Positions 556 to 8,934 of a stretch of DNA of 40,644 bases are shown piece by piece. Source of the stretch: a virus; the IMG/VR virus record IMGVR_UViG_3300009172_002465, positions 1 to 40,644 of that record; one strand, 5' to 3'. Below the pieces are notes generated by a model. That model had not been told where the DNA came from, did no database searches, and saw only the letters and a program-made list of their open reading frames with translations. The position numbers and the translations under genes were made by a program. Within the stretch, counting starts at the first letter, position 1; each line of letters starts with the position of its first letter.

Positions 556-1500
556 ATGAAAACATTATTACAAAGAACAATTAAAGACAAAGAAACAAAT
601 TTATATCCTGTATGGTTAATGAGACAAGCAGGAAGATATATGCCAGAATATATGGCGATGAAGGAAAAAAGCAAAGGCTTTTTAGATATGGCAATGACCC
701 CTTGGAAGGCTGCAGAAATTACAATGCAACCTATTAAAGATATGGATATGGATTGTGCTATTATCTTTTCTGATATATTGGTTATTAATCATGCACTAGG
801 ACAAGAACTTGACTATGTGCCAGGGCCAGTATTAGGTCCTTATGATAAGAAATTTTTAGAGGTAACTCCACAAGATTTTCTAAAAAACTGCGAACCTGTT
901 TATGACGCGATTTGTAGAGTAAGAGAAGAGCTTGATGAAAGTAAATCACTAATTGGGTTTGCAGCTGCGCCTTGGACACTATGCAAATATATGTGTCACG
1001 GTGATAAGAAATTGGAAGTAGTACAAGGTTTGATACCATATATCATTAGCCATTTGGAAGCTCAAATTGTTGCTGGTTGTGACACTATACAAATCTTTGA
1101 TAGTCATGCAGGAGATATCCCAGAAGAGGATTTCCAGGAATTTGTAATCAGCCCAACAAAAGTGATTGTTGATGTAATCAGAGCCCATCATCCGGATGTT
1201 TGTATTATTGCATTTCCTAGATTAGTAGGGAATAAGATTAATGATTATATTGAACAAGTTAATCCTGATGCAATTAATATCAGTGATGATTTACCAGTTG
1301 ATGAGATAAACGCTGAGGTAATCCAGGGTGGTATCGCTGTTAAGAGATTAATTAAAGGAGAAGATATTACTCCTGTATTAGATAAGATGAAAGATAGACC
1401 TTACATCGTAAATCTTGCCCACGGCATTGATAAGATGACTCCAGTGACCAATGTAAGAAAACTTATTGAAACGGTAAAAAACTACCGGGCCAATGTTTAA
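556..1500 (+). CDS. hemE: Uroporphyrinogen III decarboxylase
   Basis: HemE removes four acetate carboxyl groups from uroporphyrinogen III to give coproporphyrinogen III, at the branch between heme/chlorophyll and siroheme/cobalamin synthesis. The N-terminal signature WLMRQAGRYMPEY is intact (R23, R27). Other family residues are present: the catalytic Asp in FSDIL (D73), Tyr in APWTLCKYM (Y145), Ser in FDSHAG (S183), and His in NLAHG (H289). At 314 aa it is shorter than the usual 340-355. The usual GNLDP loop is replaced by QGGIAV, and the region between IIAFPRLVG and the C-terminal His motif is diverged and short. The stop overlaps the cyclase start by 8 nt, implying translational coupling. 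The ribosome-binding site is weak. Phage origin is inferred from the neighbours. The intact signature argues against a methyltransferase of the same superfamily. Confidence 0.92.
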   Translation: MKTLLQRTIKDKETNLYPVWLMRQAGRYMPEYMAMKEKSKGFLDMAMTPWKAAEITMQPIKDMDMDCAIIFSDILVINHALGQELDYVPGPVLGPYDKKFLEVTPQDFLKNCEPVYDAICRVREELDESKSLIGFAAAPWTLCKYMCHGDKKLEVVQGLIPYIISHLEAQIVAGCDTIQIFDSHAGDIPEEDFQEFVISPTKVIVDVIRAHHPDVCIIAFPRLVGNKINDYIEQVNPDAINISDDLPVDEINAEVIQGGIAVKRLIKGEDITPVLDKMKDRPYIVNLAHGIDKMTPVTNVRKLIETVKNYRANV

Positions 1501-3535
1501 ATACCTAACCAAATGGTGGGCAGTATTATTTACTGTCGCCGGGTTTGTATCATTAAGTATTACGAACCCATCATTTATACAAACATTAGAATATAGTTAC
1601 TATGACTCGTTACAGCAGAATAAAACAAAAGAGATTATTGAAGACGTGGTCCTCGTCAACATCGACGAAGCCGCAATCTCTGCCGAAGGTCAATATCCTT
1701 GGCCTCGTGGTTCTATTGCTAAGTACATTGAGTCTGGCCCTGCTGATTCTTTATATGTATTAAATGTAATCTATTCCGAAAAGGATAGATTTAAAGAAGA
1801 TTATTTACTTGCAGAAGCAATGGCAAACAAAGCTGTTGTATTATCTTCTGCCCCTACTCAACAAACATCATCCGGTACCGGTACCTTTGTAGGTGTTGCA
1901 ACTTTTGGTGAACAAGATGAAAACTGGCTATACGAATTTCCTGGATTATTGTACCCTGTGGAATCTCTTTCTTCTTGGGCTTTTGGTGTTGGTGCCACTG
2001 TTGCTATTCCTGACGAACCAACCGGAGTCGTGCGTAGAGCCCCGCTCGTTGTTAAAGCAGCCGGGAATCCCTATCCATCTCTCGCACTCGATACATTACG
2101 AGTGTTTACCGGAGAGCCAAGTTATCAGATGAAAGTCGGCTCCAATGGAGTCGAATGGGTTCGTATGGGTAAACAAGACCCTATTACAACAAATAGTTTT
2201 GCTGAAGTGCCCATTGCTTTTTGGAACCAATTTAAATCACAGTCAATAACAGAACCTCTACCAAGCGGAAAGGTATTAATATTTGGAATAACAGCAGAAG
2301 GTTATTCTAATCCAGTCGCAACCCCAACGGGTGCAATGTATCCCCACGAAGTTCAAGCTCAGTTAATTCAGACCGTTCTTTCAGGCGTTGAAATAAAGAT
2401 TCCCGACTGGACTGCAGCATTCGAGATTTTATTTCTGGTTTTAGCGAGTCTAGGAATCCTTGTAGCGGTCTATAAATTGCCCATAATTCCTGGGGTGATA
2501 TTGTCTCTGCTTTTTGTCGGTTCTGCATACGGAGTGAGTCACTACCTTTGGACCTCTTCCTTAACATTTGTTGACGCAACTTTGGTTTCATTGTCTTCCT
2601 TAGTGGTGTTTGCCCAATCGAGCTTTAATAAGTATTATATCACATTCCGAGAAAAAAGTCAAATACTAAAACAGTTCGCTGGTTATGCTTCCCCAACAGT
2701 CGTGAGACTTCTGCAAGAGAATCCTGCCCTTATTAAAGAAGGTATGAAGAAGGAAGTTAGTATTGTGTTTTCTGATTTGAGAGGCTTTACTCCCCTCGGC
2801 GAAAGCTTTGGAGACGATGTTAAAGGTTTAACTAAATTAATGAATGGATATATGGATTCAATCACGGCGCCTGTCCTTAAAGCAAATGGAATGGTTATTA
2901 AGTATATAGGCGATGCTAGTATGCACATTCACAATGCGCCGATGGAAGATAAAGACCATCCAAAAACAGCTGTTCAGACTGGTTTGAATATGCTACAATC
3001 CGTAGAAGAATTTAATGAAAAAATCACAAGTGAAGGACGACCAGCCATTGGTATGGGTGCTGGGATCAATACTGGGCTTGGTTATCTTGGGGAGATGGGG
3101 TCTACCGAGCGACACAGCTACGATGTTCTCGGGGATGCTGTTAGCACAGCTGCTCGAATTGAGTCAAAATGTAAGGAATATGGATGTCTACTTTTAGTTG
3201 GTGGAGATACAGTAAAGCATTGTAAAAATGATTTCTTTTTTCTTAAGGTAGATGACCTAGCTGTAAAAGGGAAAACTATAGGTATTGAGATATACACTGT
3301 TCTTAACCTTAATAAAGATAAATATGTTAAACCGTCACAAATGCACAATGACATGCATATGAATTATCAGAAACAAGATTTTGATAAAGCAATTAAAATA
3401 TGTAATGATTTAATGGAATGCTTTGAAGGCAGAATGTCTAATTATTACAACATGTGGATTGAGCGTTGTGAATATATGAAAACACAAAAACTTCCAAAGG
3501 ATTGGAACGGAGTATTCATTGCGACTACCAAGTAA
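1493..3535 (+). CDS. Membrane CHASE2-domain class III adenylate cyclase
   Basis: Order of parts: one N-terminal membrane segment (about 8-24), an extracytoplasmic CHASE2 sensor (about 30-300, with VVLVNIDEAAI, YPWPRGS and GITAEG...ATPTGAMYP), three membrane segments (about 310-376), and a class III cyclase domain (about 415-610). The metal-binding Asps are in FSDLRGFT (D428) and YIGD (D474). Adenine-selecting residues Lys470 and Asp544 (SYDVLGD) are the adenylate-type pair, so ATP to cAMP is predicted. The transition-state Arg is kept (R555), but the usual Asn of VNxAAR is Ser551, which could lower activity. There is no HAMP domain; CHASE2 runs straight into the TM block. It overlaps hemE by 8 nt and the next gene by 17 nt. 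Parts of the sensor region look more GC-rich than hemE, which may reflect bacterial origin. Confidence 0.9.
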   Translation: MFKYLTKWWAVLFTVAGFVSLSITNPSFIQTLEYSYYDSLQQNKTKEIIEDVVLVNIDEAAISAEGQYPWPRGSIAKYIESGPADSLYVLNVIYSEKDRFKEDYLLAEAMANKAVVLSSAPTQQTSSGTGTFVGVATFGEQDENWLYEFPGLLYPVESLSSWAFGVGATVAIPDEPTGVVRRAPLVVKAAGNPYPSLALDTLRVFTGEPSYQMKVGSNGVEWVRMGKQDPITTNSFAEVPIAFWNQFKSQSITEPLPSGKVLIFGITAEGYSNPVATPTGAMYPHEVQAQLIQTVLSGVEIKIPDWTAAFEILFLVLASLGILVAVYKLPIIPGVILSLLFVGSAYGVSHYLWTSSLTFVDATLVSLSSLVVFAQSSFNKYYITFREKSQILKQFAGYASPTVVRLLQENPALIKEGMKKEVSIVFSDLRGFTPLGESFGDDVKGLTKLMNGYMDSITAPVLKANGMVIKYIGDASMHIHNAPMEDKDHPKTAVQTGLNMLQSVEEFNEKITSEGRPAIGMGAGINTGLGYLGEMGSTERHSYDVLGDAVSTAARIESKCKEYGCLLLVGGDTVKHCKNDFFFLKVDDLAVKGKTIGIEIYTVLNLNKDKYVKPSQMHNDMHMNYQKQDFDKAIKICNDLMECFEGRMSNYYNMWIERCEYMKTQKLPKDWNGVFIATTK

Positions 3536-4013
3536 ACTATTAATTCTGATTTGTTTATTATCAGTTCCTATTGAAGCATCACAACATTTTTTCTTTAAAC
3601 AAGGATTCACAGCTCCATACACACAAGAATATGTTAACGGTGTTTTATACGAGCCTATAGATATCACTTCAAAAGAACTTTTCCAACTAACATTCAGAGA
3701 AGACACGCGACTAGTTACGCCAACACGATTTAGTTTTTATCTAATACAATCTCTCGATGTGTATTCGACATACCGTGGGTTAAAATATTCTTGTGTTTAT
3801 GAAAAGAATCCACTTGTCCTTGGAGGCTCAGAACCATCAGCTGCTGAACTTATTCTTTTTAAAGCTGTTGTTATTGGAGTAATGAAAAGTATATATGGTC
3901 AGGATCCTGACGAATGGCAATTCTTTCAGACAGCTGCTAATTACACAACTGGGTATGCTGTTGTTAATAATTTTAATATAATTAGAGAGGCAAAGGATTG
4001 GTGCCCAAAATAA
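3519..4013 (+). CDS. Secreted/membrane protein, DUF5658-like, third gene of the hemE operon
   Basis: The frame starts with TTG inside the 3' end of the cyclase gene. The N-terminus (LLILICLLSVPIEASQ) is a typical signal peptide with likely cleavage after ASQ or EAS, giving a protein of about 140 aa. The middle has a pattern of Asp-x-x-Ser-Thr followed by Glu-x-NP (QSLDVYSTYRG, VYEKNPLVLGG), then a hydrophobic helix (AAELILFKAVVIGVM). This resembles small DUF5658-type membrane proteins, but the match is by eye. Function unknown. The 17-nt overlap and shared orientation make it part of the hemE-cyclase transcript, so a role in the envelope next to the cyclase sensor is possible. Cys occurs at two places after the signal peptide. 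Confidence 0.65.
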   Translation: MRLPSKLLILICLLSVPIEASQHFFFKQGFTAPYTQEYVNGVLYEPIDITSKELFQLTFREDTRLVTPTRFSFYLIQSLDVYSTYRGLKYSCVYEKNPLVLGGSEPSAAELILFKAVVIGVMKSIYGQDPDEWQFFQTAANYTTGYAVVNNFNIIREAKDWCPK

Positions 4014-4983: not shown

Positions 4984-5237
4984 TAAATAGATTCCATTAA
5001 GGCCTCAATATCCTCAACTTCACTTACGACCTGAGCCATATTTTGTTGATAATAAACCCTTGCGGCCTTTGCAAGAATCTTTTTAGGGATATCTACATCC
5101 TCCGAAAGAGATTCAATAGCTTCCTTGATAAAAGACCTTTCAGCTGCCTGGCGAGTATATGAATTACTAATTTCTTCCATACAATCCCTAATACGCTTCT
5201 TGTCTTTGTCATTTGTTGGTAATATAAAACTACTCAT
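4983..5237 (-). CDS. dsbA: DsbA-like double-stranded DNA-binding protein (late transcription)
   Basis: 84 aa. The core pattern IRDCMEEISNSYTR, a conserved lysine/glutamate helix, DIPKKILAKAARVYYQQN and an acidic tail resemble the DsbA-type proteins of T4 and marine T4-like phages. In T4 DsbA binds dsDNA near late promoters and supports late transcription. A role here with the TATAAATA late promoters is inference. A ribosome site (AAAGGAG) lies 10 nt before the ATG. A stable hairpin lies in the upstream region. Confidence 0.6.
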   Translation of the reverse strand: MSSFILPTNDKDKKRIRDCMEEISNSYTRQAAERSFIKEAIESLSEDVDIPKKILAKAARVYYQQNMAQVVSEVEDIEALMESI

Positions 5238-5275
5238 GATATAAATTTCTCCTTTAAAGCTCGGTTATATTTACA

Positions 5276-5311
5276 GTACAAGTGTCGAGCAGCACTTGCA
5301 CCTTTTTAATT
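5276..5311 (+). terminator. Strong hairpin upstream of the DsbA-like gene; plus-sense terminator shape
   Basis: GTACAAGTG (5276-5284) pairs with CACTTGCAC (5293-5301), 9 bp with one wobble and an 8-nt loop, followed on the plus strand by CTTTTTAATT. Both neighbouring genes are on the minus strand, where this would be a leader hairpin without a U-tract. It may stop antisense transcription or act as an RNA processing or stability element for dsbA mRNA. Confidence 0.45.
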
Positions 5312-5516
5312 AATCTTCTAAAAATGATTCAATCGCTTCGCCACCAATTGTGTTGAAAGCCTCTGCACCAGCATAAATCCATTTTATAATATAATATATG
5401 GGAGTCCATATAACAGCTGGTACGATAACCAATAAAACCTTGCCAAAGTGTTTCCAATTTAAATCAATAATATCGTAATACACTGTTGTGATTTTTTGAC
5501 GTATATTATCCAGCAT
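5310..5516 (-). CDS. Small membrane protein
   Basis: 68 aa from the ATG preceded by AGAGGA at 10 nt; this start overlaps the SWIM gene stop by 11 nt. A longer start 72 nt upstream would overlap much more and is less likely. The central segment (FGKVLLVIVPAVIWTPIYYI) is one membrane span, followed by an amphipathic C-terminus ending in acidic residues. Function not recognised. Confidence 0.6.
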   Translation of the reverse strand: MLDNIRQKITTVYYDIIDLNWKHFGKVLLVIVPAVIWTPIYYIIKWIYAGAEAFNTIGGEAIESFLED

Positions 5517-5820
5517 GTTTGCATTTTCCTCTAAAAGTAAATCCTGGGCAACTGCACTTTCCATTAGTGATTGTGTACACATTGCCATTGCTACCCTTGA
5601 CCGTCCTCACATCGTTTGGAAGATCTGAATCAGGGTATTCTGAAATCAGTTCAAATTTGCGCCTTGACTTAGAAAATTGTTTCATAGGCTTTTTGAATTT
5701 TTTGAGGTCTCCACCAGGTGCCTGATACGCTACCAGAAACCCATATGAATTAAGATGGTATTGACCATTTGCGACTGGTTGATCTTTCCAGTCAGTTATT
5801 TCTTGCATAACTTGAATCAT
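5506..5820 (-). CDS. SWIM-type zinc-finger protein
   Basis: 104 aa with a C-terminal CxCxnCxH zinc site (YTITNGKCSCPGFTFRGKCKH), the SWIM signature, at about residues 88-102. SWIM domains bind nucleic acid or protein partners in helicases, transposases and kinases; here the finger stands almost alone after a basic region (KKFKKPMKQFSKSRRKFE). It begins 1 nt after the stop of the preceding small membrane gene. DNA or RNA binding is a reasonable but untested inference. Confidence 0.7.
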   Translation of the reverse strand: MIQVMQEITDWKDQPVANGQYHLNSYGFLVAYQAPGGDLKKFKKPMKQFSKSRRKFELISEYPDSDLPNDVRTVKGSNGNVYTITNGKCSCPGFTFRGKCKHAG

Positions 5821-5821
5821 A

Positions 5822-5998
5822 TTATTTGGAATTCCTATTTAATAATTTATGAATAAGACCACCTTTTTCCCAAATTAAAGGAATGGTTTTCTTTGCATCT
5901 TTCTCAAACACTATGTGTATTCCTATATAACTGAACACTATAAATGCAGTCAGTATAGCGATACCGCCTAAATCACTTAATATTTCTAATGTTTCCAT
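5822..5998 (-). CDS. 58-aa single-span membrane protein
   Basis: The ATG overlaps the upstream stop (TAATG). The N-terminus is a membrane helix (LGGIAILTAFIVFSYIGIHI) followed by a basic, soluble tail. No family recognised. It sits between a conserved hypothetical and the SWIM protein in one transcript. Confidence 0.6.
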   Translation of the reverse strand: METLEILSDLGGIAILTAFIVFSYIGIHIVFEKDAKKTIPLIWEKGGLIHKLLNRNSK

Positions 5999-6846: not shown

Positions 6847-7269
6847 TTACGCCTCTTTTGAAGGGTCCCATATCGTTAGGTTCTTCGTTTTAAGTCTATT
6901 AGCGACAATATTGTATCGCGATTGTTCCTCTTTCCATTCCTTTAACCACGTATGTCCGTCTCTTTCGGCGTCAACAAATATGGCATTTGTGAATGCTAAG
7001 GGTAATAATACCGCACAGTGAATAACGATACTCACGACCGTGCTATAGTTGAAAAACCCTAGGTAGTTCGCTGCCAGGAACCCAAAGAATACACTCCAAA
7101 TAGTGAATAATACTAACATAAAGTAGGTTTGCAGACTCTGATCTGGGATATATTTTAATGGATTGTATCGCACATCCATCACTCTTCGCCAGCCACTCAC
7201 CAAGGACATTACGGTCCTTCTAAAAAGACTGGGCTTTTTAATACTTGGTTCAATCATCTTTTCCACCAT
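6847..7269 (-). CDS. Two-span membrane protein, conserved in marine T4-like phages
   Basis: 140 aa. A basic N-terminus (residues 1-45) precedes two membrane helices (about 50-70 and 80-100) and a charged C-terminal tail ending in KEA. The stretch LKYIPDQSLQTYFMLVLFT looks like a family seen in marine T4-like phages, with no known function that I can name. It follows a tiny membrane gene with which it overlaps by 20 nt. The ATG has AAGGA at 10 nt. Confidence 0.6.
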   Translation of the reverse strand: MVEKMIEPSIKKPSLFRRTVMSLVSGWRRVMDVRYNPLKYIPDQSLQTYFMLVLFTIWSVFFGFLAANYLGFFNYSTVVSIVIHCAVLLPLAFTNAIFVDAERDGHTWLKEWKEEQSRYNIVANRLKTKNLTIWDPSKEA

Positions 7270-7357
7270 ATCTAATAAATTCCTTAATTACATGCATACC
7301 ATACGTGGCCCATGTAATGACCACAAAACTCCAGAATAGAAGGACCAACTCAGTCAT
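7250..7357 (-). CDS. 35-aa membrane peptide
   Basis: The frame starts inside the end of the preceding 42-aa gene and overlaps the next gene start. The N-terminal 18 residues are hydrophobic (ELVLLFWSFVVITWATYG), then a basic tail follows. Small single-span peptides of this kind are common in this genome. Function unknown. Confidence 0.5.
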   Translation of the reverse strand: MTELVLLFWSFVVITWATYGMHVIKEFIRYGGKDD

Positions 7358-7478
7358 CAAATGAGTTCTCATCGTCATCGGCAACGTTTGCTCTAATTCT
7401 GTCAGCGATATCTATCAAGTCACTGATTTCTTGTGAGTCTCTTTCTGTGTCTAATTCAATTTCAATTTTAATTTTCAC
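7350..7478 (-). CDS. 42-aa acidic hypothetical protein, GTG start
   Basis: GTG start overlapping the previous stop (GTGA), with AGGAGT 6 nt upstream, which decides the start. The product is short, with alternating Lys/Ile at the N-terminus (MKIKIEIELDTERDS) and an acidic C-terminus. No family recognised. Confidence 0.55.
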   Translation of the reverse strand: MKIKIEIELDTERDSQEISDLIDIADRIRANVADDDENSFDD

Positions 7479-7858
7479 GAAGCACTCCTAGTAGATCTTG
7501 TGTAGATATAAGCGTCAATTTCAGCAGCATTGGCAATTCCACCAACGATGTCTCCAAACCCATTGCTGTATTGACATTCGTTACCAGTTCTGGGATTGAT
7601 TCTTTTCTCAACAGGTTTCCTACCTTTACATTCAACTCTATATCTGACCGGGTTACCGAGTCTATTGACAACTCCAGATTCCTTAAGAAGTTTATTCATG
7701 TATTTTACTGTATCTTTGAATTTCTCAAGTTCCAGCATATCACCTGAACAGTTAACGTCAAATCTGCCTACCCAAGCATCAGATCTTTGTTTACCATTCT
7801 CGTCAGTTTTAACCACGACATCGTCTATAGTTAAAAGTCCATTTTTATCATATTTCAT
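7475..7858 (-). CDS. Hypothetical early protein
   Basis: 127 aa, first gene behind an early promoter, with a GGAGATAA ribosome site. It is soluble with an alternating N-terminal pattern (LLTIDDVVVKTDENG) that suggests a small beta domain, and a basic middle (VECKGRKPVEKRINP). No family recognised. Likely an early host-takeover or DNA-metabolism accessory. Confidence 0.6.
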   Translation of the reverse strand: MKYDKNGLLTIDDVVVKTDENGKQRSDAWVGRFDVNCSGDMLELEKFKDTVKYMNKLLKESGVVNRLGNPVRYRVECKGRKPVEKRINPRTGNECQYSNGFGDIVGGIANAAEIDAYIYTRSTRSAS

Positions 7859-7890
7859 AATTTATCTCCATTGCCTCAAAATATAATACC

Positions 7891-7919
7891 ATTATAATAC
7901 TTTAAAAGGCAAAAGTCAA
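7891..7919 (-). promoter_or_regulatory. Early sigma70 promoter embedded in a hairpin
   Basis: TTGACT (7914-7919), 17-bp spacer, TATAAT (7891-7896). The -35 box lies within the 3' arm of the terminator-like hairpin at 7911-7946. Confidence 0.85.
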
Positions 7920-7946
7920 CCCTTTTCTGCAAAAGAGTTGACTTTT
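7911..7946. terminator. Long symmetric hairpin, likely bidirectional terminator
   Basis: AAAAGTCAAC pairs with GTTGACTTTT, and inside it CTTTT with AAAAG, with one mismatch and a CTGC loop: about 15 bp. Both strands end in a T-run. It follows the DUF932 gene stop on the minus strand and includes the -35 box of the next promoter. Confidence 0.75.
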
Positions 7947-7959
7947 TGAAAGAGGTGAC

Positions 7960-8934
7960 TTACGCCACCTCCGCCATTTCAATTGCGAGGTCGAGAGCGT
8001 CTATCTTTCTCTTCGCATTATGACCGAACCAGGCAGCTGCAGCTCTATAATCTGCATTCCTTCCTAATTCATGGTCTGTCATGTATGTCACTGCATTATA
8101 TGCATTCCACCATGAACCTCTGGCAAAATCTGCCCCAGGTTGAGTGTCGACAATTTCCACGGCTCGTTGAGCTGTTGGACTAAGATTTAGGCCAGTAGAA
8201 CTGAGCTGTCTCTTATCGTTGGTAGATGTACCAAATACCTGCGCCATGAATGCCTCAAAGCTTTGAGGTGTATATTTCTTTGAACCAAGAAACTCTGCAG
8301 CTTCCTTGAATTGTCCCATTCTAGTATGTGAAATACCCAACAATTCCTTGACCTTTTCGGCGTCAAACTCATTCCTATGTGATACTCTCACAGCGGGTTG
8401 TCCGTTCTCAGCGAGGGCCATTGTTAATGTATTATTACATACCACTCTAGTCATTACAAACTTAACATCGACAGCTCTACCATATAAGTGAGGATTAGAG
8501 AATAAAAGAAAACCTTTTACTTCATCTCCACCAAATAAAGAGAACCCTTCGTTCACATCAGCTGTTGCAAAGACGATTTGACCGTCCTTCAGCGAACCAG
8601 CTGTATCCATCTTCATATCGCCAGCAGTTACGAAATCATTAAAGAAATCAAACGCCTCCGAGTTTTGGACCGGATTCCATTTTCCACCAACATTGGTAAG
8701 AATTTTACCATCTGTTTCCCTTACTAGGGACTGTTGACCTGTTGGAACCTTTTTTCCGTCAAGTTCTACAAAAGCTTCTACCTTTTTGACTTTCCAGTCA
8801 AGTCCAGCTGCTGTTTGCATTTCCCTTGGCGTCATGTCATCTTCGACCGGAACTCCAAGACCGTGCCAGGGGACCCCAGCAGATAGACGATACGCCATTT
8901 GAGCTTCGCCATTTACCATTTCTAATTCATGCAT
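7960..8934 (-). CDS. DUF932 phage/plasmid-like protein
   Basis: 324 aa, the usual length for the DUF932 (TIGR03299-like) family found on phages and plasmids. The N-terminal pattern (AYRLSAGVPWHGLGVPV) and the later VVCNNTLTMAL and RVSHR segments are typical. Biochemical role unknown in general; plasmid and phage distribution suggests DNA-related or host-interaction work. It is the last gene of a three-gene unit (with the 60- and 119-aa genes), ending at the hairpin terminator. Confidence 0.85.
   Translation of the reverse strand: MHELEMVNGEAQMAYRLSAGVPWHGLGVPVEDDMTPREMQTAAGLDWKVKKVEAFVELDGKKVPTGQQSLVRETDGKILTNVGGKWNPVQNSEAFDFFNDFVTAGDMKMDTAGSLKDGQIVFATADVNEGFSLFGGDEVKGFLLFSNPHLYGRAVDVKFVMTRVVCNNTLTMALAENGQPAVRVSHRNEFDAEKVKELLGISHTRMGQFKEAAEFLGSKKYTPQSFEAFMAQVFGTSTNDKRQLSSTGLNLSPTAQRAVEIVDTQPGADFARGSWWNAYNAVTYMTDHELGRNADYRAAAAWFGHNAKRKIDALDLAIEMAEVA

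Follow-up and report, generated by a model that had tools for sequence, protein, structure and literature searches.

A CHASE2-sensor class III nucleotidyl cyclase with an altered active site in a phage curli cassette

Introduction

Cyclases with a CHASE2 sensor have been described in bacteria near genes for FecR-domain proteins, and cyclase genes have been reported in phage curli clusters. According to the available parts of one study, CyaD1 of Sinorhizobium meliloti has such a neighborhood with FecR (CyaD1/SMc02177), and CyaD1 without its CHASE2 domain makes cyclic AMP (cAMP) constitutively (PMC5498481). The accessible text on Campylobacterota describes clusters of a CHASE2 cyclase, FecR, a phosphodiesterase and a TPR protein (PMC9239204). 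Curli clusters of pelagiphages were reported in 2022 to carry genes labeled AC (adenylate cyclase), FecR and HK, and the available parts of that report give the clusters an alphaproteobacterial origin and movement between phage families (PMC9599517). Here we analyze the virus record IMGVR_UViG_3300009172_002465, a DNA of 40,644 bases that we call the window, and in particular its gene at positions 1493–3535, which encodes a CHASE2 cyclase at the end of a phage curli cassette.

The phage cassettes resemble the S. meliloti and Campylobacterota clusters in placing a CHASE2 cyclase near a FecR-domain protein, but the accessible descriptions of the bacterial clusters name no curli genes and describe a CRP-type regulator (Clr) or a phosphodiesterase with them. 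The closest described phage genes are I899_gp019 of HTVC008M and gp104 of Melnitz, which like the window gene encode CHASE2 and cyclase domains and stand last in a csgF-csgG-curlin-fecR-curlin cassette. The window protein differs from that of HTVC008M in being of another cyclase type (Ser551, Asp544) and in having an extra C-terminal tail; with Melnitz it shares the cyclase type (83% identity) but has a distant sensor (33%). As far as it was available, the main text of PMC9599517 does not contain the words CHASE2, active site, catalytic or chimer-, and that of PMC9004378, which discusses the curli genes of Melnitz, does not contain the word cyclase. The author of a preliminary description of the window DNA knew of no well-described phage with a CHASE2 adenylate cyclase. 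HTVC008M and four Melnitz strains do carry one, and in its available text PMC9599517 reported the adenylate cyclase in 2022; the window gene is thus not the first of its kind in a phage. We found no further paper on phage-borne CHASE2 cyclases in the literature searched, which did not cover most subscription journals.

The cyclase gene

The open reading frame (ORF) at 1493–3535 lies on the plus strand, as do all features of the window given below, starts with ATG and encodes 680 amino acids without an internal stop. Its product matches Pfam CHASE2 (E 4e-29; 102.4 bits, curated cut-off 26.3), Pfam Guanylate_cyc (E 3.6e-17; 63 bits, curated cut-off 21.9) and, over its full length, PHROG 35576 (E 3.3e-147). 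Together with tblastn, these matches identify a CHASE2–transmembrane–class III nucleotidyl cyclase, in agreement with the full-length, phage-encoded membrane cyclase of the preliminary description. An AlphaFold2 model from 30 sequences (mean pLDDT 80.1, pTM 0.57) places helices at residues 9–24 and 26–43, a folded domain at 47–297, helices at 307–328, 331–356 and 363–395, the cyclase at 420–604 and a tail at 608–663. The Pfam bounds of CHASE2 (residues 18–319, positions 1544–2449) run into the ends of the flanking helices. The three helices that follow in the model (2411–2677) are read as a membrane block plus linker; the assignment of membrane crossing to individual helices is our own reading of the model. 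Pfam puts the class III domain at residues 419–601 (2747–3295), and CyaB, CyaC, Cya2 and OaPAC match it in the PDB by sequence and by fold. The C-terminal helical tail (3314–3481), seen in the model and the alignment, is absent from HTVC008M; cellular relatives align there too. Both the Pfam domains and the order of elements in the model fit the layout of a CHASE2 sensor cyclase, with an N-terminal helix, CHASE2, several helices and then the cyclase.

The best Foldseek matches in the PDB are class III cyclases (TMt 0.73–0.77 to CyaB and CyaC chains), and the fold of the cyclase half matches solved adenylyl and guanylyl cyclases; no solved relative of the sensor half was found by sequence at E 0.1. 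The fold and the metal-site residues are common to the window cyclase and to CyaB of Pseudomonas aeruginosa (3r5g), CyaC of Spirulina (1wc0), Cya2 (2w01) and OaPAC, whereas the replacement of Asn by Ser, other active-site changes and the CHASE2 membrane sensor set the window protein apart from all four. The Guanylate_cyc domain, the fold and two metal-binding Asp residues (D428 and D474) are present; of the transition-state pair, Arg555 is present and Asn is replaced by Ser551. We therefore describe the protein as a class III nucleotidyl cyclase by fold and metal site and do not claim a canonical active site.

The curli cassette

A tblastn search of 50,697 phage records found relatives of the cyclase in nine: four Melnitz strains (51% identity over 100% of the query), HTVC008M twice (32%, 83% of the query), two Acinetobacter records that resemble bacterial contigs and one fecal phage record. 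In CAKLQF020000009.1, named Acinetobacter phage MD-2021a, the matches are surrounded by housekeeping genes of bacteria (mfd, isc, hsc). We did not take them as evidence from phages, although the row of this record (L004) is still within the counts of the first alignment below. The gene order in Melnitz and HTVC008M is csgF, csgG, curlin, fecR, curlin and, last, the cyclase, with Pfam support in Melnitz for CsgF, CsgG, curlin repeats, FecR and both cyclase domains and in HTVC008M for FecR, curlin repeats and both cyclase domains. In Melnitz (L002), the ORFs at 5191–5910 and 6969–7985 exceed the Pfam Curlin_rpt cut-off; the accessible text of PMC9004378 says that csgA and csgB are lacking.

The window opens within the second curlin-type gene of a cassette, which codes for amyloid repeats and is truncated where the contig ends; the 3' part that is present (2–463) is 29% identical to a Melnitz curlin (E 1e-15, single comparison). 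Pfam gave no match for the fragment itself; a longer relative (L007:4451–5266) is above the Curlin_rpt cut-off. Among 45 IMG/VR loci collected with the window protein, the whole cassette lies upstream of the cyclase in L007, L008, L010, L014 and L040, in which the cyclase is 81–88% identical to that of the window. Judged from these sequences, the window is the terminal part of a phage curli cassette to which its cyclase belongs, csgF, csgG and fecR falling outside it. This context, the best clue to function, had been missed in the preliminary description.

A second set comprised 160 loci obtained, among the matches listed, by two IMG/VR scans with queries that have Asn at position 551. In an IMG/VR scan, at least 585 of the first 600 pattern matches encode a cyclase relative (tblastn E <= 1e-3), and the best 80 were fetched. 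At least 4.5 kb of upstream DNA is present in 76 of the 160 loci, and csgF, csgG and fecR lie within 8 kb in 75 of these, a count of linkage and not of retention, as the loci were found through the cyclase. The phage gene family that joins an envelope sensor with a cyclic-nucleotide enzyme in a curli cassette is a large one. Related phage contigs also encode proteins that match the PHROG of ribosomal protein S6 glutaminyl transferase (L153:9206–10654 and L154:7684–9129). In L020 and L024 the curli genes are opposite in strand to the cyclase, a divergent arrangement.

That the window starts partway through an ORF could point to a chimeric assembly or to a host gene on a miscalled contig. To this explanation we give almost no credence. 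The hemE-cyclase junction (hemE being the gene before the cyclase; see below) recurs in several other contigs (L005, L006, L007, L014 and L040), and the same cassette end is found in the cultured phages Melnitz and HTVC008M and in several IMG/VR contigs; a chimeric junction or an absence of such synteny had been named as what would refute the preliminary description. Continuity of the contig is supported by L038, which matches the window without interruption from position 2694, within the cyclase, to 6844 (88% nucleotide identity). The record of L007 is collinear with the window at the hemE-cyclase end and has further matches, in several pieces, between 13.4 and 39.1 kb. The contig also has phage genes for replication and nucleotide metabolism.

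The active site and the two catalytic types

The role names that we use for D428, K470, D474, D544, N551 and R555 (metal Asp, adenine Lys, base-specifying, transition-state) are those that we take to apply to these positions. The first metal Asp, D428 (2774–2776), is D in 47 of the 47 covering rows of the first alignment and in 54 and 29 rows from the genome searches, and the stretch from the adenine Lys, K470, to the second metal Asp, D474 (2900–2914), has K and D in every covering row. Alignments place D544 (3122–3124) at the second base-specifying position, where cellular relatives have Ser or Thr, and show that the transition-state Arg, R555 (3155–3157), is retained. Metal and adenine-selecting residues are present, as the preliminary description said: D428 and D474 at the metal site and K470 and D544 at the base site. 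That description had overlooked S551 (3143–3145), which stands at the expected transition-state Asn and opposite Asn of solved cyclases in four of the four PDB alignments listed, and I469, H478 and H480, which also depart from the cellular pattern.

The first alignment has 49 rows, several of them near-copies, of which 47 cover position 551. Ser551 and Asp544 occur together in 43 of these; the other four, which have Asn at 551, are HTVC008M (L003), L027, L028 and the Acinetobacter record L004. This count (43 Ser against 3 Asn phage rows) is biased because the scan patterns were derived from the window protein. In the second set, from the two scans with Asn-type proteins, 159 of the 160 rows cover the site and all 159 have Asn; L192 of this set is HTVC008M and L272 is the record of L027. 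The Asn type is thus the commoner phage form, and the window has the less common type.

Genome searches covered 190 genomes of the class and 299 of the phylum, taken as Alphaproteobacteria and Pseudomonadota, with residues read only in fetched loci. At 551, 53 of the 54 class-level rows have Asn, the single Ser being a phage contig (L120) in genome G001, and all 29 further phylum-level rows have Asn. Cellular rows have Asn in 82 of 82, against Ser in the window; the 82 are not all distinct genes, as a few entered through both searches, and S. meliloti CyaD1 and the Campylobacterota cyclases are not among them. The best matches listed, aside from phage contigs of G001 (69–71%), are only 39% (class) and 41% (phylum) identical, and therefore no cellular source of the Ser-type cyclase was seen. 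Three candidate loci for a bacterial source, from 63 pattern matches in a scan of genome contigs (L050, L051 and L052), were rejected; all have phage-cassette genes and a GC content of 0.36–0.37, and they are probably phage contigs misbinned into metagenome-assembled genomes of Rhodobacteraceae and Pirellulales. Within the data searched, the Ser-type cyclase is found solely in phages.

The cassette might have brought the cyclase along from a bacterium as a passenger with no role of its own in infection, in keeping with the alphaproteobacterial origin given for the cassette's cyclase in the available text of PMC9599517. We consider this very improbable: the active-site residues are constrained across divergent phages, and the cassette linkage holds in 75 of 76 loci.

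Changes that are fixed in the Ser type relative to cellular rows include D469I, A478H, W480H, N534E, N551S and L552T, while D428, K470, D474 and R555 are unchanged. Ser551 is encoded by TCN codons in 23 rows and by AGY codons in 20, and this conservation through two codon families argues for selection on function. The transition-state Asn is important for catalysis, and dead enzymes often lose metal residues. Loss of this Asn in 43 of 43 Ser-type rows could mean that the cyclase half is dead or nearly so and serves the sensor as a dimerizing output or scaffold, but this is improbable, as both metal Asp residues, the Lys and the Arg are in all covering rows of the first alignment and the cyclase half is far more conserved than the sensor half (mean pairwise identities of 83.9% and 45.4% among Ser-type rows). 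It is possible, if unlikely, that the Ser-type enzyme is slow or has a changed product, cGMP or a pyrimidine cyclic nucleotide (cNMP), and is used against host signaling or cNMP-based defense and not through cAMP. The fixed changes around the base and the transition-state region relative to the 82 cellular rows would fit such a change, as would the length of the branch that separates the two types of cyclase (2.16 changes per column on one side of the midpoint and 3.55 on the other) and the lack of a cellular source among the matches listed. On the other side, K470 is retained and position 544 is Asp, a Lys and Asp pair typical of adenylate cyclases. Of the earlier label, adenylate cyclase, the noun stands and the adjective is not secure, because Ser replaces the transition-state Asn and other changes are fixed.

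Exchange of sensor and cyclase halves

The two halves of the protein give conflicting relationships. The window is close to Melnitz in the cyclase (83%) and distant in the sensor (33%); its sensor is nearer to those of L027 (61%) and L284 (63%), whose cyclases are only 42% and 38% identical to its own. L284 and HTVC008M share 67% of the cyclase and 30% of the sensor. For Melnitz and HTVC008M the values are 54% (sensor) and 37% (cyclase), and as both are cultured, misassembly is not needed as an explanation.

Trees were built after removal of near-identical and incomplete rows, with 47 rows (14 cellular) in the first pair and 48 of 192, picked for diversity, in the second. The three Asn-type phage proteins form one group in the first cyclase tree (99/94) and fall into two clades in the sensor tree. 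A sensor tree in which these three were constrained to one group was rejected (p-AU 0.0042), as was a cyclase tree that united the members of the window's sensor clade (p-AU 1.5e-7); the constrained groups of these first trees were named after the trees were seen. In the second pair, the type changes once by the cyclase (100/100) and three times by the sensor, as forced by starred branches, and a sensor tree with all Ser-type rows held together was rejected (p-AU 3.4e-78). Bootstrap convergence was incomplete for the 48-row cyclase tree, and the trees carry a warning of long branches. The window's sensor clade, eight Ser-type rows, is nested among Asn-type sensors; read most simply, the trees point to replacement of the cyclase half in the lineage of the window. 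Identity drops at about residues 385–400, in the helix that joins sensor to cyclase, which by sequence is the exchange point. In some close pairs, identity at fourfold sites also differs between the halves, with 80% in the sensor and 48% in the cyclase for Melnitz and L031 and, in the opposite direction, 65% and 76% for the window and L005, which suggests further exchange among Ser-type genes.

The exchange of halves among phages seems new, as does the altered active site of a cyclase variant seen here only in phages; our literature searching was not aimed at Asn-to-Ser sites or sensor-cyclase exchange, and we do not claim that either is unpublished. A bolder and rather doubtful proposal is that a class III subfamily peculiar to phages has evolved, with a remodeled active site (Ser551, Asp544, Ile469, His478 and His480) and a product other than ordinary cAMP, and that phages transfer its catalytic half between sensors through recombination in the linker helix. 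One phage-made second messenger would then be coupled to many different envelope signals during infection. The two catalytic types on related sensors offer natural pairs for testing the role of the cyclase in infection: related sensors with either enzyme, and nearly identical enzymes on very different sensors.

A proposed envelope-sensing switch

Our preferred reading, to which we assign a probability of about 60%, is that the gene encodes an envelope-sensing cyclic-nucleotide switch attached to phage-made curli. At the end of a cassette with the order csgF, csgG, curlin, fecR, curlin, in some cases hemE, and CHASE2-cyclase, it would supply an inner membrane protein with an N-terminal helix, a periplasmic CHASE2 domain, three more helices and a cytoplasmic class III cyclase that would act as a dimer. 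CHASE2 would read a state of the envelope tied to the periplasmic and outer membrane products of the cassette (FecR, curlin and the CsgFG pore) and would gate the production of a 3',5'-cyclic nucleotide, in all likelihood cAMP, which would act through a host receptor. The model for this is the FecR/CHASE2-cyclase clusters of bacteria, and the proposal is supported by the domains, the cassette linkage, the retained metal Asp, Lys and Arg residues, the conservation of Ser551 and the fold matches. In cellular genomes, FecR-like ORFs were likewise found near CHASE2 cyclases, in 4 of 29 short loci and in 5 of 20 longer loci; two genes occur in both counts, which were made with phage-trained profiles and are lower bounds. 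By analogy with CyaD1, which makes cAMP constitutively once CHASE2 is removed, the sensor may hold the enzyme back. A resetting of host cAMP signaling, as the preliminary description suggested, is a possible outcome.

Several points weigh against this proposal. The N551S change alters a residue important for catalysis and D469I, A478H and W480H are likewise fixed in the Ser type, so activity or product may differ; the active-site stretch at residues 531–547 is poorly predicted in the model (pLDDT <50), and one of the 160 rows of the second phage set has Tyr at 428 (159 have D). No cNMP-binding domain was found in any of nine phage records searched (two complete genomes and seven partial contigs), and therefore a receptor would more likely be a host protein, unless the product acts on some other target. 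Of the 76 loci with upstream DNA, L203 is without csgF, csgG or fecR. CsgF was found in 7 of 385 genomes (6 above the cut-off, one being G001), and searches with phage-trained profiles found neither FecR nor a cyclase within the 19 kb fetched at five cellular curli loci; the curli link is therefore seen here only in phages. Finally, according to the available text of PMC5498481, the S. meliloti FecR gene is not required to perceive the plant signal, which speaks against a simple model of FecR as the ligand of CHASE2.

Neighboring genes and the rest of the window

Between the curlin fragment and the cyclase lies a uroporphyrinogen decarboxylase-like gene, hemE (556–1500; Pfam URO-D, E 3.7e-70), which overlaps the cyclase start by 8 nt, as previously described. 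Its product scores 247 bits with NCBIfam hemE, below the 303-bit cut-off, and aligns to solved URO-D enzymes. Ten window-like entries cover the site: hemE precedes the cyclase in six (the window, L005, L006, L007, L014 and L040) and is missing in four (L008, L009, L010 and L011). It precedes the cyclase neither in Melnitz and HTVC008M nor in any of the 76 second-set loci that have 4.5 kb or more of upstream DNA. Its matches among phage records are weak (12 records at 27–33% identity, several on bacterial-looking records), and matches in the 190 genomes reach at most 43% over nearly the full length, or 53% over residues 17–150. The window's hemE appears to be a viral gene that has diverged and not a piece of host DNA acquired recently. 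A phage hemE-like gene preceding a cyclase seems new; no paper on phage hemE was found in the literature searched, with the same limit on subscription journals. A second URO-D-like ORF, 28% identical to that of the window, lies just downstream of a phage cyclase in L023 (2177–3190, plus strand). In other loci (L032/L045:4819–6726, L016–L019, L021, L025 and L029), differing unidentified ORFs, one of 636 codons, lie at this site between the final curlin gene and the cyclase.

The cyclase is followed by a small, fast-diverging ORF (3519–4013), 29–41% identical in 11 loci in which the cyclase is 81–94% identical; further relatives are 78% identical in L038 and 25% in L027, and one in L007 (8581–9240) has a subthreshold match to DUF5658.

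The window starts within an ORF and is therefore a fragment. No tRNAs were found within it, and no structural genes were recognized among 20 window proteins scanned against PHROGs. Elsewhere it has PHROG matches to NrdA and DNA ligase and further phage-type genes for NrdB, thymidylate synthase, primase, exonuclease and PhoH. The primase is 47% identical to those of Sinorhizobium phages phiM7, phiM12 and phiM19, and the thymidylate synthase is 59% identical to the flavin-dependent thymidylate synthase of Melnitz; these likenesses make a large tailed phage of the wider phiM12/Melnitz group the likely source of the window.

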